Positions 1 through 41,912 of a DNA stretch of 64,000 bases are shown piece by piece. Below the pieces are notes generated by a model. It saw only the letters and a program-made list of their open reading frames with translations. It was not told where the DNA came from and did no database searches. The stretch comes from Arthrobacter sp. PM3 (lineage in GTDB: Bacteria; Actinomycetota; Actinomycetes; Actinomycetales; Micrococcaceae): contig NZ_CP022314.1 of NCBI RefSeq assembly GCF_003352915.1, positions 4,286,353 to 4,350,352 on the forward strand. Reading direction: 5' to 3'. The translations under genes were made by a program, and so were the position numbers. Each line of letters begins with the position of its first letter. The first letter of the stretch is position 1.

Positions 1-680
1 CGGATGTCTACGGCTTCTCCGTCCCGGCGCTGATGGGCATCACCCAGGCCCCCACGCGGGTGGACGACATGATCCTGCCGCCGGTCGCGCACGGGGTGAA
101 GGTGATCTCCATCGGCATGTTCGTCACCGGCAACCAGCCCGTGGCCTGGCGCGGGCCGATGCTGCACCGCGCGCTGGAGCAGTTCCTCACGGACGTCTAC
201 TTCGGCGACCTCGACGCCCTGTTCCTGGACCTGCCCCCGGGCACCGGCGACATCGCCATCTCCGTCGCCCAGCTGCTGCCCAAGGCGCAGATCCTTGTTG
301 TCACCACGCCCCAGGCGGCCGCCGCGGACGTGGCTGAGCGGGCCGGGGCTATCGCCGCCCAGACCGGCCAGACCGTGGCCGGCGTGGTGGAGAACATGTC
401 CTATCTTGAACTGCCCGACGGCGGCAGGATGGACCTGTTCGGCAGCGGCGGCGGCGCCGTGCTCGCCGAACGTCTCTCGGCCACCGTGGGTGAGGATGTT
501 CCCCTGCTCGGCCAGATCCCACTCGAGGTCCTGCTGCGTGAAGGCGGGGACGCCGGAATGCCGGTGGTGCTCGGACGCCCGGAGACCCCGGCCGCACTGG
601 CCCTCGCCGGGGTGGCCGGTAAACTCGCGGCGGTTCCGCGCGGCCTCAAGGGCATGCCGCTGGGCCTGCAGCCCCGCTGA
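1..680 (+). CDS. mrp: Mrp/NBP35-family P-loop ATPase, 5' end cut off by the window
   Basis: Cytosolic ATPase of the Mrp/ApbC family, which carries and delivers Fe-S clusters. The reading frame is open from base 3, so the N-terminal part with the Walker A P-loop lies outside the window. Visible are a Mrp-like D-V-Y-G-x-S-x-P stretch at the very start, the family signature LDLPPGTGD about 75 residues in, the ENMSY block and the LFGSGGG block. The CxxC pair that binds Fe-S in many Mrp proteins is absent between ENMSY and LFGSGGG (LPDGG stands there), which I recall as usual in Actinobacteria. It converges with tatB, as mrp and tatB are close neighbours in other Actinobacteria. Family assignment is firm; the cluster-carrier role is from family knowledge. 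Confidence 0.93.
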   Translation, partial: DVYGFSVPALMGITQAPTRVDDMILPPVAHGVKVISIGMFVTGNQPVAWRGPMLHRALEQFLTDVYFGDLDALFLDLPPGTGDIAISVAQLLPKAQILVVTTPQAAAADVAERAGAIAAQTGQTVAGVVENMSYLELPDGGRMDLFGSGGGAVLAERLSATVGEDVPLLGQIPLEVLLREGGDAGMPVVLGRPETPAALALAGVAGKLAAVPRGLKGMPLGLQPR

Positions 681-4839: not shown

Positions 4840-6141
4840 TCACGGCGGGTAATCGCCTCCGCCCGGCAGCGGCGCCCATGCCCACAGCCATACAATCCAC
4901 ACGATCTGCAGCAGCACGAACATGACCACCACGGTGCCGCGGTAGGCGCGGGAGCGCGAGACGAGGGCGGCGCTGAGCGCCAGGGGGAACAGCGGCAGCA
5001 GCATCCGGAACGTACTGGTCTGGGGGTGCAGGAAGACCAGCAGGTAGCCCATGTAGCAGCAGCACCAGAGCCTCAGTTCGGTACCAAGCGCGACGACGGG
5101 CCGGGACATCATCAGCAGGGTGAACGCGGCAACGAGCACGAACGGGGCCAGCACGCCGAGCGTCGGACCGAAGAGCATGACGCCGGTGTCGAACCAGGGT
5201 TTGAAGGGCACCAGGTCATCGCCGCGCCACGCGGTTTCGGTCTTGGTGTAGGCGCCCGGATCACCGGTCGAGGCCCAGGCGATGGCCGGCCAGAGCAGAG
5301 CCCCGATTCCGCTGGCGGCCGTGAGGCCGGCGAGGGACCAAAGCTGCGCGTTGCTATGGATCCCCGGAACAGTCTCTCCCTGAACAGTCTTTCGCTGCGC
5401 TGTGACGCGCTGCCAGAGGCGGTAGAGGAACAGCAGGCCCATCGTCGCGGCCAATGGAACCCCGGTGGGTCGGGACAGGCACATCAGGAGTGCCACCGGC
5501 ATCGCCCACAGGTACCGGCGTTCCATGACCAGCAGCAGCGCGCCGCCCAGCAGCAGCAGATTGAGGGATTCGGCATAAGGTACCTGGAGCACCGGCGCCA
5601 CCGGGAAAGCAGCGAGGAACACCACCCCCCACAGCGCCGTGCGGTGCCCGGCCCGGTGCCGGAAGATCCGGTACGCCACGAGGACCGCTCCCAGCCCGGC
5701 GACCAGCGCGATGACCGTGAGCGACCACGCCGGGCCGGTGCCCGTGAGCCCCGAAAGGACCCTGCCCAGCATCGGAAACAGCGGGTAGAAGGCCCACGCG
5801 TTCTCCTGCACGATACCCTCGGCGCTGGTCGGCAGCAGTGCGGGGTAGCCGTGCTGCAGCGCTTCGGCGTACCAGCGGGCGTCCCAAATGTTGATGAAGT
5901 TCCAGTAGTCCGGCTTGGCGGGGAACCACGGATTTACGCCCTGGTGCAGGGCCGCGGCCATGAAGATGCAGGCACTGACCAGCCGGGCGGCGATATACAG
6001 TCCGGAAACCTGGACCCACCACGGCCACCGCGACATCCGGGCGCCGGCGGACGCGATCCGGGTCCATGCCGCGGCGTTCAGCCCCTGCGGGCCCCGGGGC
6101 CCGGGGGCCGCGGCGGTCTCCGGATTGTCCACGTGGTTCAC
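4840..6141 (-). CDS. Polytopic membrane mannosyltransferase-like protein (PIG-V/Gpi18 type)
   Basis: 433-residue integral membrane protein with about ten hydrophobic segments. It resembles GT-C glycosyltransferases of the PIG-V (mannosyltransferase) family: a first helix near residue 45, the WDARWY motif near residue 90 in the first outer loop, YPLFPMLGR near 119 and the YAES loop near 186. In such enzymes an acidic residue of the first loop acts in transfer from a polyprenyl-phosphate sugar; the D of WDARWY is the candidate. A role in lipoglycan or cell-wall glycan assembly is inference. The start ATG overlaps the stop of the DivIVA-like gene by 4 bases (ATGA), so the two are translationally coupled. 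Confidence 0.8.
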   Translation of the reverse strand: MNHVDNPETAAAPGPRGPQGLNAAAWTRIASAGARMSRWPWWVQVSGLYIAARLVSACIFMAAALHQGVNPWFPAKPDYWNFINIWDARWYAEALQHGYPALLPTSAEGIVQENAWAFYPLFPMLGRVLSGLTGTGPAWSLTVIALVAGLGAVLVAYRIFRHRAGHRTALWGVVFLAAFPVAPVLQVPYAESLNLLLLGGALLLVMERRYLWAMPVALLMCLSRPTGVPLAATMGLLFLYRLWQRVTAQRKTVQGETVPGIHSNAQLWSLAGLTAASGIGALLWPAIAWASTGDPGAYTKTETAWRGDDLVPFKPWFDTGVMLFGPTLGVLAPFVLVAAFTLLMMSRPVVALGTELRLWCCCYMGYLLVFLHPQTSTFRMLLPLFPLALSAALVSRSRAYRGTVVVMFVLLQIVWIVWLWAWAPLPGGGDYPP

Positions 6142-19369: not shown

Positions 19370-19757
19370 ACTGGACATGCTCTCCTCGCACCCCTCCGGC
19401 CGGACATGCTCTCCCCACCACCCCGGCGCCACTGTACATGCCCTCCTGCCACTCCACCGGACGGACATGCCCTCCCCGCCACCCCGGGGCCACCGGACAT
19501 GCTCCCCTCCCGCCCCTCCGGCCGGACATGCTCTCCGCACCACTGGACATGTCCTCCTGCCGCTCCATCGGACGGGCATGTGCTCCCCCTGGCCTCCCTC
19601 CCAGTGAGCATGCTCTTTTGCGGCCCGGAGAAATGGGCATAGGCCCACTATGTCCATCCGGTGAAGCCAGCGGAGGACATGTCCAATGGTGGATCGAGCA
19701 ACCGCAGGACATGCCCAATGGTGAATCCACGGACCGCGGGACGCGTCCAGTGGCGGC
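19370..19757. repeat. GGACATG-box array 1 (61-base tandem units, 29/32 spacing)
   Basis: Fourteen related boxes of the form (G/A)G(A/G)CATG. The C of the core falls at 19376, 19405, 19437, 19466, 19498, 19527, 19548, 19577, 19609, 19638, 19649 (ctATGTCC), 19678, 19710 and 19742 (GGACGCGTCC). Intervals are 29, 32, 29, 32, 29, 21, 29, 32, 29, 11, 29, 32, 32. The first part is a tandem 61-base repeat made of a 29-base and a 32-base half; later boxes keep the spacing while the DNA between diverges. Some boxes are complete palindromes (GGACATGTCC). The whole gap 19234-19918 carries no credible gene: the spacing breaks every reading frame. Confidence 0.9.
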
Positions 19758-19762
19758 GCCAG

Positions 19763-19888
19763 AAGTCTCGTCGTGAGTGGACAAGCCTCGGTGAGTCGGC
19801 GCGCTGTGGTGGTTTGGCATGTCGCGGTGGTTTGGCGCGCTGTGGTGGTTTAGCATGCCGCGACGGTTGCGCCGGCGGCGATGGTTCA
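19763..19888. repeat. 18-base tandem repeat, five clear and two weaker units
   Basis: Clear units of 18 bases at 19799, 19817, 19835, 19853 and 19871, for example GCGCGCTGTGGTGGTTTG and GCATGTCGCGGTGGTTTG alternating, with two weaker units before them from 19763. On the minus strand they would encode hexapeptides of the NHHSAP/NHRDMP type, but in a frame other than that of the neighbouring gene and without their own start. The block lies between GGACATG array 1 and the 3' end of the DUF559 pseudogene. Confidence 0.85.
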
Positions 19889-19918: not shown

Positions 19919-20729
19919 CTAGGCTGCGGCCGTGAGCCTGTTCAGGGTCTCCTTGACCATGGCGATGAACTCCTGCGGGTGATCCCTCAGCAACTGGTAG
20001 CTCACGACAAGTGTCGGGATGCCGCGGCGCGTGGTGACATTCCACCGCCGTCGGTCCTCCTCAAAGCTCGCCTTGTCCATGTGGTAGGCAGCCCCATCCG
20101 TCTCGATCCCGAGCCGGCCGTCGACCATGAGGTCCAGATGACCCAAACCGGGCACATTGACCTGAGATTCGACATGGAACCCGGCCCGCCGGAGAAGATA
20201 TCGCGCCAGGCACTCGATCACGGACTGCGATTGAGGCACGATCCCGGACACGATCCGACGCTCCCGGACGTCGTTTCGACCGTCGAGCCGCTGGCGCAGA
20301 GCACTGATCTGGAGTCCTTTGAGCACGACGGCAGACTCGGCAACGACGAGGCCGTCAGGTTCGGGCAAGCAACGCAGGCTTTGGATGACGACATCCAGTA
20401 GCTTCAGCGGCGCGGAGGACCTGTGGCACACGTAGCCCGGGTAACTTCGGCTGTGCGTGATTGCCACGTGTGGTTCGTTGGGGGGCGTCAAGTACCCACA
20501 GCCCGCCCAGGAGGGCCGCGGTGACGCAGGCGGGCTCGGCGGGCAGCGAGCGGATGGCGATGAGCTGCGGGTCGGCTCCGGGAACTGCATAAACGCCGTA
20601 GGCAACCCTCAACACGGCACCACTGGCCATTGCGGTCTTGAGCTGGAAATCGGATACGCCGGCGGCGGCAATGTGTTTGGCGCGCGCGACGCCGTCGTAC
20701 TTGGTGAGTACCTCGATGATGTTGGCCAT
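19919..20729 (-). pseudogene. Frameshifted AbiEi-like/DUF559 gene (one extra base in a run of six G)
   Basis: The gene would encode about 269 residues. The N-terminal 80 residues (MANIIEVLTKYDGVARAKHI onward, ATG at 20729) are a winged-helix antitoxin-like domain as in AbiEi-related proteins; the C-terminal half, with IETDGAAYHMDKASFEEDRR and VVSYQLL, is a DUF559 domain of the Vsr/restriction-endonuclease-like fold. The two halves are in different frames. The switch lies at a run of six G on the plus strand (20480-20485): with five, the protein reads smoothly GLWVLDAPNEPHVAITHS. The span of 811 bases is one more than a multiple of three, as this predicts. It may be a true mutation, a phase-variable run or a sequencing error. 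GGACATG arrays flank it on both sides. Confidence 0.85.
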
Positions 20730-20835
20730 GGACCCATCGTGCAGTCGCGGACGGTGCGTGAGTAGTCGGGGCCGGGCTATGTGGACAACCCGGTGCAGCG
20801 CTCCTGGACCGCGGGTCGGCCCGCCAAGCCAACGG

Positions 20836-20969
20836 TGGACATGCTCCGCGTTGCTGGACCGCGTGGGGCATGTCCGGTGGCCAGGAACGGGCATGTCCAG
20901 TGGGTGCGCCGGGGAACGGGCATGATGCCACGATGCCCACCAGCAGGCCCAAAAATGAGCATGTCCCGC
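20836..20969. repeat. GGACATG-box array 2
   Basis: Five boxes with the core C at 20840, 20869, 20892, 20921 and 20960 (GGACATGCTCC, GGGCATGTCCGG, GGGCATGTCCAG, GGGCATGATGCC, GAGCATGTCCC). Intervals 29, 23, 29, 39. It lies upstream of the frameshifted DUF559 gene; the 289 bases from 20730 to 21018 hold no credible gene, only this array, a G-rich repeat and presumably the gene's promoter. Confidence 0.8.
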
Positions 20970-20974
20970 CGGTT

Positions 20975-21018
20975 GGGGCGGGACGGGGCGGGACGGTGCG
21001 GGACGGGTGGGGGCGGGG
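20975..21018. repeat. G-rich 10-base tandem repeat
   Basis: GGGGCGGGAC at 20975-20984 and 20985-20994, GGTGCGGGAC at 20995-21004, then a further G-run region to the stop codon of the next gene. Several G-runs of three or more on one strand make a G-quadruplex possible. Confidence 0.75.
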
Positions 21019-21423: not shown

Positions 21424-23352
<1,929 letters not shown>

Positions 23353-41663: not shown

Positions 41664-41912
41664 CGGACATGCCACTCACCCGCCCGATCCACTGGACATG
41701 CTCATTCTTACCGCCCCTCATCTGAGGATATGTCCAGTCGTAAACCGTCCAGGAGGACATGCCCGCTCTTACCCTCTTTCCGAGTGGGACATGCTCATTT
41801 GTCGACGTTGCCGGCGGACATCTGGACATTCTGTCTCGGCCTGCCCACCAAGAAAGGACATGCCCAATCGTGGCGAGGCGGCGCCAGCCCCCAGGCCCGG
41901 ACGTGTCCAGTC
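41664..41912. repeat. GGACATG-box array 3 (29/32 spacing)
   Basis: Nine boxes with the core C (or its replacement) at 41668, 41697, 41729 (GGATATGTCC), 41758, 41790, 41819 (GGACATCTGG), 41827 (GGACATTCTG), 41859 and 41902 (GGACGTGTCC). Intervals 29, 32, 29, 32, 29, 8, 32, 43. The first six intervals repeat the alternation of array 1 exactly, although the DNA between boxes is unlike array 1. Typical boxes are GGACATGCTCATT and GGACATGCCCAATCG. Confidence 0.88.

Follow-up and report, generated by a model that had tools for sequence, protein, structure and literature searches.

Dispersed GGACATG box arrays in Arthrobacter and their probable partner, an AbiEi-like/Vsr-type fusion protein

What are the regularly spaced GGACATG boxes near the end of the Arthrobacter sp. 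PM3 chromosome, and what reads them? We analysed a window of 64 kb, the last 64 kb of this 4.35-Mb single-contig genome, in which one such array (array 1, 19370-19757) lies beside a gene (hereafter, the partner gene) whose intact orthologs fuse a winged helix like that of AbiEi antitoxins to a nuclease resembling Vsr and I-Bth0305I. On balance, we consider the arrays to be probably the dispersed sites of this fusion protein, working roughly as repetitive extragenic palindromes (REPs) do with REP-associated tyrosine transposases (RAYTs). What we observed is the architecture of the sites, their dispersal and conservation, their flanking of the gene and, for two alleles, the correspondence of gene to box. 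Genomes and loci are referred to by our own handles (G and L numbers).

Array 1 carries GGACATG-type boxes at 19373, 19402, 19434, 19463, 19495, 19524, 19545, 19574, 19606, 19635, 19646, 19675 and 19707, and a degenerate fourteenth at about 19739. The steps between them are exactly 29, 32, 29, 32, 29, 21, 29, 32, 29, 11, 29, 32 and 32, and all 14 boxes and 13 spacings given in a first-pass annotation of this DNA are present in the sequence. The window contains 34 copies of GGACATG, compared with 9.6 (sd 2.9, maximum 19) in 100 dinucleotide-preserving shuffles. That annotation had listed the boxes as one series; the spacings hold, and the boxes do not all point the same way, as their strand switches between 19635 and 19646, and the steps 29-11-29 form a core at 19606-19684. 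This core is an imperfect inverted repeat with 69 bp between the starts of its outer boxes (19606 and 19675), and its inner boxes lie at 19635 (GGGCATA) and, as an opposite-strand 10-mer, from 19646 (TATGTCC). The left side of the array (19373-19615, plus strand) has nine boxes at steps of 29 and 32 with one of 21, and the right side (19675-19757) has the boxes at 19675, 19707 and about 19739 at steps of 32 bp. The pattern had been suggested to suit a protein binding on one face of the helix, which does not work because 29, 32 and 61 bp correspond to about 2.8, 3.05 and 5.8 turns (10.5 bp per turn). The steps of 21 and 11 had likewise been explained as exceptions by about one helical turn, an account that had to be dropped: the 11 is the centre of the palindrome.

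Array 1 belongs to a genome-wide family. The pattern GGACATG-22..25-GGACATG was found 90 times in the whole genome versus once for a reversed-pattern control; these 90 pairs (29-32 bp) form about 32 clusters across the chromosome, with spacers that differ from cluster to cluster. The architecture was profiled in 31 sources, the window and 30 fetched regions, which were chosen by box pairs and not by cores, the 69-bp step playing no part in the choice. The boxes face inward (F...F-69-R...R), and 69 is the recurrent step besides 29 and 32. A total of 48 cores were found in these 31 array regions, and a second rule requiring the inner boxes returned 46 cores in 29 of them. Each core (about 79 bp) is an imperfect inverted repeat whose four boxes, two inner ones between two outer ones, follow each other at steps of 29, 11 and 29; outward from it the steps run 32, 29, 32, 29 in the clearest cases, that is, in 61-bp (32+29) units. 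The longest run seen had seven cores within about 0.9 kb (L205 in G123, 5193-6065). Pair counts over 198 genomes of the genus were very uneven, with dozens in some and control level in many, and the 37 core-bearing loci of a GTDB-wide scan were all titled Arthrobacter or Pseudarthrobacter (among the at least 119 loci listed). The consensus core had no match in plasmid and phage collections, nor had array 1 in the plasmid collection. By a simple gene caller, the arrays sit in tandem, convergent and divergent gene settings, and the adjacent genes are ordinary (a crp-like regulator, a chaperonin, a permease, a glycine C-acetyltransferase and others). No shared function was seen among the flanking genes, with at most 3 of 61 neighbours per Pfam family; three families have 3 members, and two of these (rve_2 and rve_3) are the IS3 element described below. 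The first-pass account had noted neither the switch of strand nor the family across the genome nor the adjacent gene.

At loci with the same neighbours in relatives, the core is kept, flanked on either side by a variable number of units. The 69-bp step is present in seven of the eight listed orthologous loci, and L107 has 29+40 instead. At the locus behind the crp-like gene (8 rows from 8 species), whose adjacent genes are about 81-94% identical across the eight species, 67% of the box columns are invariant versus 14% of the spacer columns, and at a second orthologous locus (5 rows from 5 species) the values are 67% versus 31%; columns were classed as box columns when half of the rows matched a box there, a definition that favours boxes in this comparison. 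Boxes are thus more conserved than spacers at both loci, as had been predicted, and both bear out the earlier reading of the pattern as selection on boxes and spacing rather than coding. The array was to be regarded as a decaying local minisatellite if relatives kept neither boxes nor spacing; they keep both. In other relatives, including the array-bearing G012 and G022, the crp-side place is short and empty, and array sites therefore come and go.

The partner gene lies on the minus strand between array 1 and its constant neighbour, the typA/BipA GTPase gene (21424-23352, minus strand). The nuclease half (19919-20605) is a 228-aa open reading frame with a weak match to the MTES_1575 domain, and the winged-helix half (20470-20729) lies in another frame, starting from an ATG at 20729 within an open reading frame at 20355-20894. 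The own copy therefore has an apparent frameshift at about 20470-20480, possibly a sequencing error; the arrays remain. On the 5' side of the gene, boxes at 20837 and 20866 are followed by a second core at 20889-20966 (the whole spanning 20837-20966), with 68 instead of 69 bp between its outer boxes. Intact orthologs have about 269 aa. Their domain matches are AbiEi_4 and MTES_1575, with PF13338 scoring 26.5 bits (cut-off 25) in one ortholog and 25.1 in a second. The predicted structure has AbiEi (6y8q) as its top Foldseek match and also matches I-Bth0305I (3r3p), in agreement with a nuclease fold, and the structures listed further include many winged-helix chains and Holliday junction resolvases. 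Among solved structures, none was matched by a sequence-profile search. The predicted active-site acids E172, D199, E209, D211 and D225 are invariant in 39 rows, and H216 is present in 97%.

To relate gene and arrays, 121 genomes of the genus were searched with the partner protein and with a sequence-only model of the core. Partner-protein identity was 62-100% in 32 genomes, followed by a gap down to 48-52%. Core-model matches were detected in 37 of the 121 genomes, 35 with at least 26 and two with 4 and 2, where the numbers are lower bounds as the scan scores about 36 candidates per genome with both strands counted; the other 84 genomes had none. All 32 genomes with close orthologs are among the 37 array genomes and none among the 84 array-less ones (Fisher p 2e-24, relatedness ignored); the five array genomes without a close ortholog are G018, G065, G067, G094 and G131. 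The partner gene had boxes on both sides at 30 of 30 fetched loci, own included: on its 5' side at least one box in 30 of 30 and two or more in 23, and on its 3' side two or more in all 30. In three named array loci the orthologs lie near boxes, and two are framed on both sides. Its distance from typA is 0.8-2.7 kb in all 32 genomes. In a 57-row typA tree, rows with both gene and arrays, many of them only about a third filled, need six changes, at least three of which are forced by well-supported branches. Because of these six changes, gene plus array is not one clade event.

A second allele of the gene offers a parallel case. Homologs of about 50% identity (48-52%) occupy the same place beside typA at 13 loci, with two more in which the gene is in pieces. 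Their flanks hold a different palindrome, approximately TGCGCAGGGAC-N-GTCCCTGCGCA, found with up to five mismatches on both sides of the gene in 11 of the 13 loci, where the two copies lie 934-939 bp apart, and on one side in the other two. At this threshold, 400 kb of G001 and 184 kb of the own array loci each yield one match. With up to three mismatches, the palindrome was found in 14 of 14 second-allele genomes, in 4 of 4 genomes with broken or remnant copies and in 8 of 103 others among the 121, and a reversed control never matched in these genomes. Away from typA it is present in 14 of 14 second-allele genomes versus 11 of 107 others, at low copy. The palindrome was recognised from the gene flanks, and k-mers gave a hint at most; a k-mer scan of 400 kb of G001 returned no third dialect. 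Since the palindrome flanks the second allele and tracks its genomes, each of the two alleles is associated with a palindrome of its own, at high copy for one and with 1-5 matches per genome for the other. Broken or remnant alleles of this type stand beside typA at L330 (G114), L331 (G021), L353 (G090) and L365 (G016), and in the remnants of G090 and G016 palindrome matches persist at both ends.

How might such a protein use its arrays? Parts of PMC7319586 describe cooperative or tandem binding of AbiEi-family proteins to 23-bp inverted repeats, with bending of the DNA, and a passage of PMC3943268 has I-Bth0305I as a dimer on a target of nearly 60 bp. The fusion protein, whose gene lies next to typA with a set of its own sites on either side, would read the arrays. 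Judging from these families, its molecules may occupy box pairs with the cooperativity that AbiEi shows on inverted repeats and may bend or loop the DNA, and the Vsr-like tails would come to lie near the core dyad. The nuclease could nick or cut at or near the cores, and repair templated by another copy might carry cores into new intergenic spaces and add or remove 61-bp units. To nuclease-driven spreading of the arrays as such we give somewhat less than an even chance. At the same tentative level we suggest the term 'site-homing', for a fusion that multiplies arrays of its binding sites while its own gene stays in place, with two alleles and two box dialects. Such a system would possibly be a non-HUH counterpart of RAYT and REP, in which an antitoxin-like autoregulatory operator became a genome-wide repeat.

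The core is an inverted repeat, and a structured RNA or a REP-like DNA hairpin might instead be the selected object. In 45 aligned cores of the own genome, 69.8% of cells pair between the arms versus 33-43% when the arms are slid. There is no covariation over these cores (69.8% paired against a mean of 71.2% with the 3' letters redealt) and no excess of double changes, and each arm matches the consensus independently, as expected for two-fold-symmetric protein binding. A protein dyad fits better than RNA because the arms are symmetric without covarying. Several results weigh against a protein site: six of eight hand-picked cores, whose z scores range from +1.1 to -10.5, fold at z ≤ -2.5, far better than shuffles; the core centre has compensated changes, at the second orthologous locus only; and in a second array family (below) the two arms show some agreement close to the box (p 0.003 for positions 7-12, p 0.23 over all positions). 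The remaining two picked cores (z +1.1 and -1.1) fold no better than shuffles, and neither Rfam at gathering scores nor a tRNA/tmRNA search gave a match over the window. We regard an RNA or hairpin as very unlikely. Where the first-pass annotation had left protein binding and structured RNA side by side, the protein is now the best reading, with a candidate found, and a general RNA fails for want of covariation. A decaying minisatellite without function would account for the similarity of local copies (L167, L170, L174); it is scarcely credible given that the geometry recurs with different spacers in most of the 30 other regions and at 37 loci from other strains, and that boxes are retained at orthologous loci.

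Two further readings keep the protein site and change the role or the identity of the protein. The partner could act on many operators, as a regulator or as a factor that structures the chromosome, its nuclease inactive or otherwise employed, and slippage and recombination would then grow the arrays; boxes would be kept since binding matters to the host, for insulation, looping or transcription. This has in its favour the AbiEi-type winged helix, whose relatives autoregulate through inverted repeats according to parts of PMC7319586, the low-copy palindromes of the second allele, which resemble a small regulon plus autoregulation, and the retention of orthologous sites over several species. We nevertheless find it unlikely, as sites are found on the 3' side of the gene too, the nuclease residues E172, D199, E209 and D211, among others, do not vary, and arrays occur in all three kinds of gene setting. 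Alternatively, gene and arrays may merely be co-inherited and a different protein may read the arrays, in line with array genomes that lack the gene (G065, G067) and with the second array family, which has no such gene nearby. The framing of the gene by boxes at all 30 loci, the scatter of gene plus arrays over the typA tree (many of its rows only about a third filled) and the pairing of two alleles with two palindromes make this quite improbable.

The second array family consists of ACGCTCT/AGAGCGT boxes 32 bp apart, in a head-to-head arrangement whose inner boxes are separated by 30 or 41 bp. Its boxes are ACGCTCTCTCACTT / AAGTGAGAGAGCGT, and between boxes there is an A/T-only tract of about 4 bp whose letters are free. 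Examples are L194, L200, L201, L231 and L372-L391 (G013, G015, G021, G079, G098, G142 and others). It is common in genomes without GGACATG arrays: 40 of the 121 genomes have at least 10 matches, none of them among the 37, a few of which hold small numbers (5 in G031, 3 in G032). Second family and ~50% allele coexist in several genomes. The main gap in our account is the partner of this family: no DUF559-like or AbiEi gene was found beside its arrays at 20 gene loci, 20 array loci and another 15 gene loci. Only one of 30 unselected second-family loci, L251, shares a place with the first family, at the same gene as L180 and L060; the sharing of places at the crp locus shows little because that locus was hand-chosen. 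The second family had a single weak match among plasmids and none among phages in the collections searched. In G097, boxes GGACATGAGAGAGCG at C1:947343-947445, 3869401-3869439 and 4009406-4009444 resemble a mix of the first and second families, with 32-bp spacing where repeated.

REP/RAYT is the best-studied example of small repeats that multiply in bacterial chromosomes aided by a single resident gene. Like REPs and their mosaic clusters (bacterial interspersed mosaic elements, BIMEs), the arrays are dispersed, intergenic, palindromic, clustered and regularly spaced; different repeat types pair with different gene types, and the gene is flanked by its own repeats, as counted above for both alleles. 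Unlike in REP/RAYT, the protein is AbiEi-like and Vsr-like, and a Y1 (IS200/IS605-type, PF01797) transposase was found in 0 of 25 genomes of the genus, own included (and in 1 of 14 genomes of other genera); the arrays also lack a covarying hairpin and have 61-bp units in a strict 29/32/11 geometry. The AbiE type IV toxin-antitoxin systems (AbiEi, Rv2827c) share the AbiEi-type winged helix and the inverted repeats at the gene, which for AbiEi and Rv2827c form tandem pairs with gaps one turn apart (3 and 13 bp) in the relevant part of PMC7319586; they differ in that the partner protein carries a fused nuclease and that its sites also lie 3' of the gene and in dozens of other places. With EDxHD/Vsr-like homing endonucleases such as I-Bth0305I, the protein has in common the predicted nuclease fold and the retained putative active-site acids, unlike them having an AbiEi-like DNA-binding part and a gene that stays fixed beside typA while the sites multiply. 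Within PubMed Central (PMC), we found no description of GGACATG arrays or of such a gene-repeat link; PMC12306157, in the part available, lists numbers for an Arthrobacter. The system appears to be new, given a REP/RAYT-like working that we infer, two REP/RAYT hallmarks looked for and absent, and no described match in that literature. If this is right, a second, unrelated protein class is tied to dispersed sites and the REP/RAYT-like life style arose more than once; a role would also be suggested for at least one branch of the proteins annotated as 'AbiEi family antitoxin domain-containing'. The two natural alleles with their two box dialects are direct material for tests of binding, cutting and spreading. 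Even if the protein were only a regulator, dozens of long chromosomal nucleoprotein sites would be an unusual architecture for a free-living bacterium.

The arrays are also a target of an insertion sequence (IS). IS1397 and ISKpn1 are REP-inserting elements, as is ISPpu9, and an IS3-family element of the own genome (ends TGAAGTGGTCCCCG ... CGGGGACCAGTTCA) resembles them in lying inside array units. It has seven copies or fragments, mostly internally shortened, in the genome (G000: 2374622-2375350, 4033157-4033909, 1696873-1697601, 3812604-3812937, 2800101-2801668, 988460-988758 and 2815553-2815607). For six of the seven, the sequence read on one or both sides contains array boxes or a core, and three of these six lie within a 29-32 bp interval with a target duplication of 3 bp; the seventh is a 55-bp fragment, 56 bp past a listed box. 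This element parasitises the arrays and is not their source. The targeting of REPs by insertion sequences, a further likeness to REP/RAYT, has been described (PMC1525189, in part). The ends of the element bear no resemblance to the boxes, and an Arthrobacter plasmid carries a relative that, by its annotated surroundings, lies outside arrays.

The window holds a second array (array 2, 41665-41865) with boxes at 41665, 41694, 41755, 41787 and 41856, and its 69-bp core at 41787-41865 has degenerate inner boxes. Two short repeats of other kinds lie near the partner gene: the 18-bp unit GGTGGTTTGGCATGCCGC, repeated about three times at 19808-19862 between array 1 and the gene, and a short tandem repeat GGGGCGGGAC beyond its 5'-side boxes (20975-21018).
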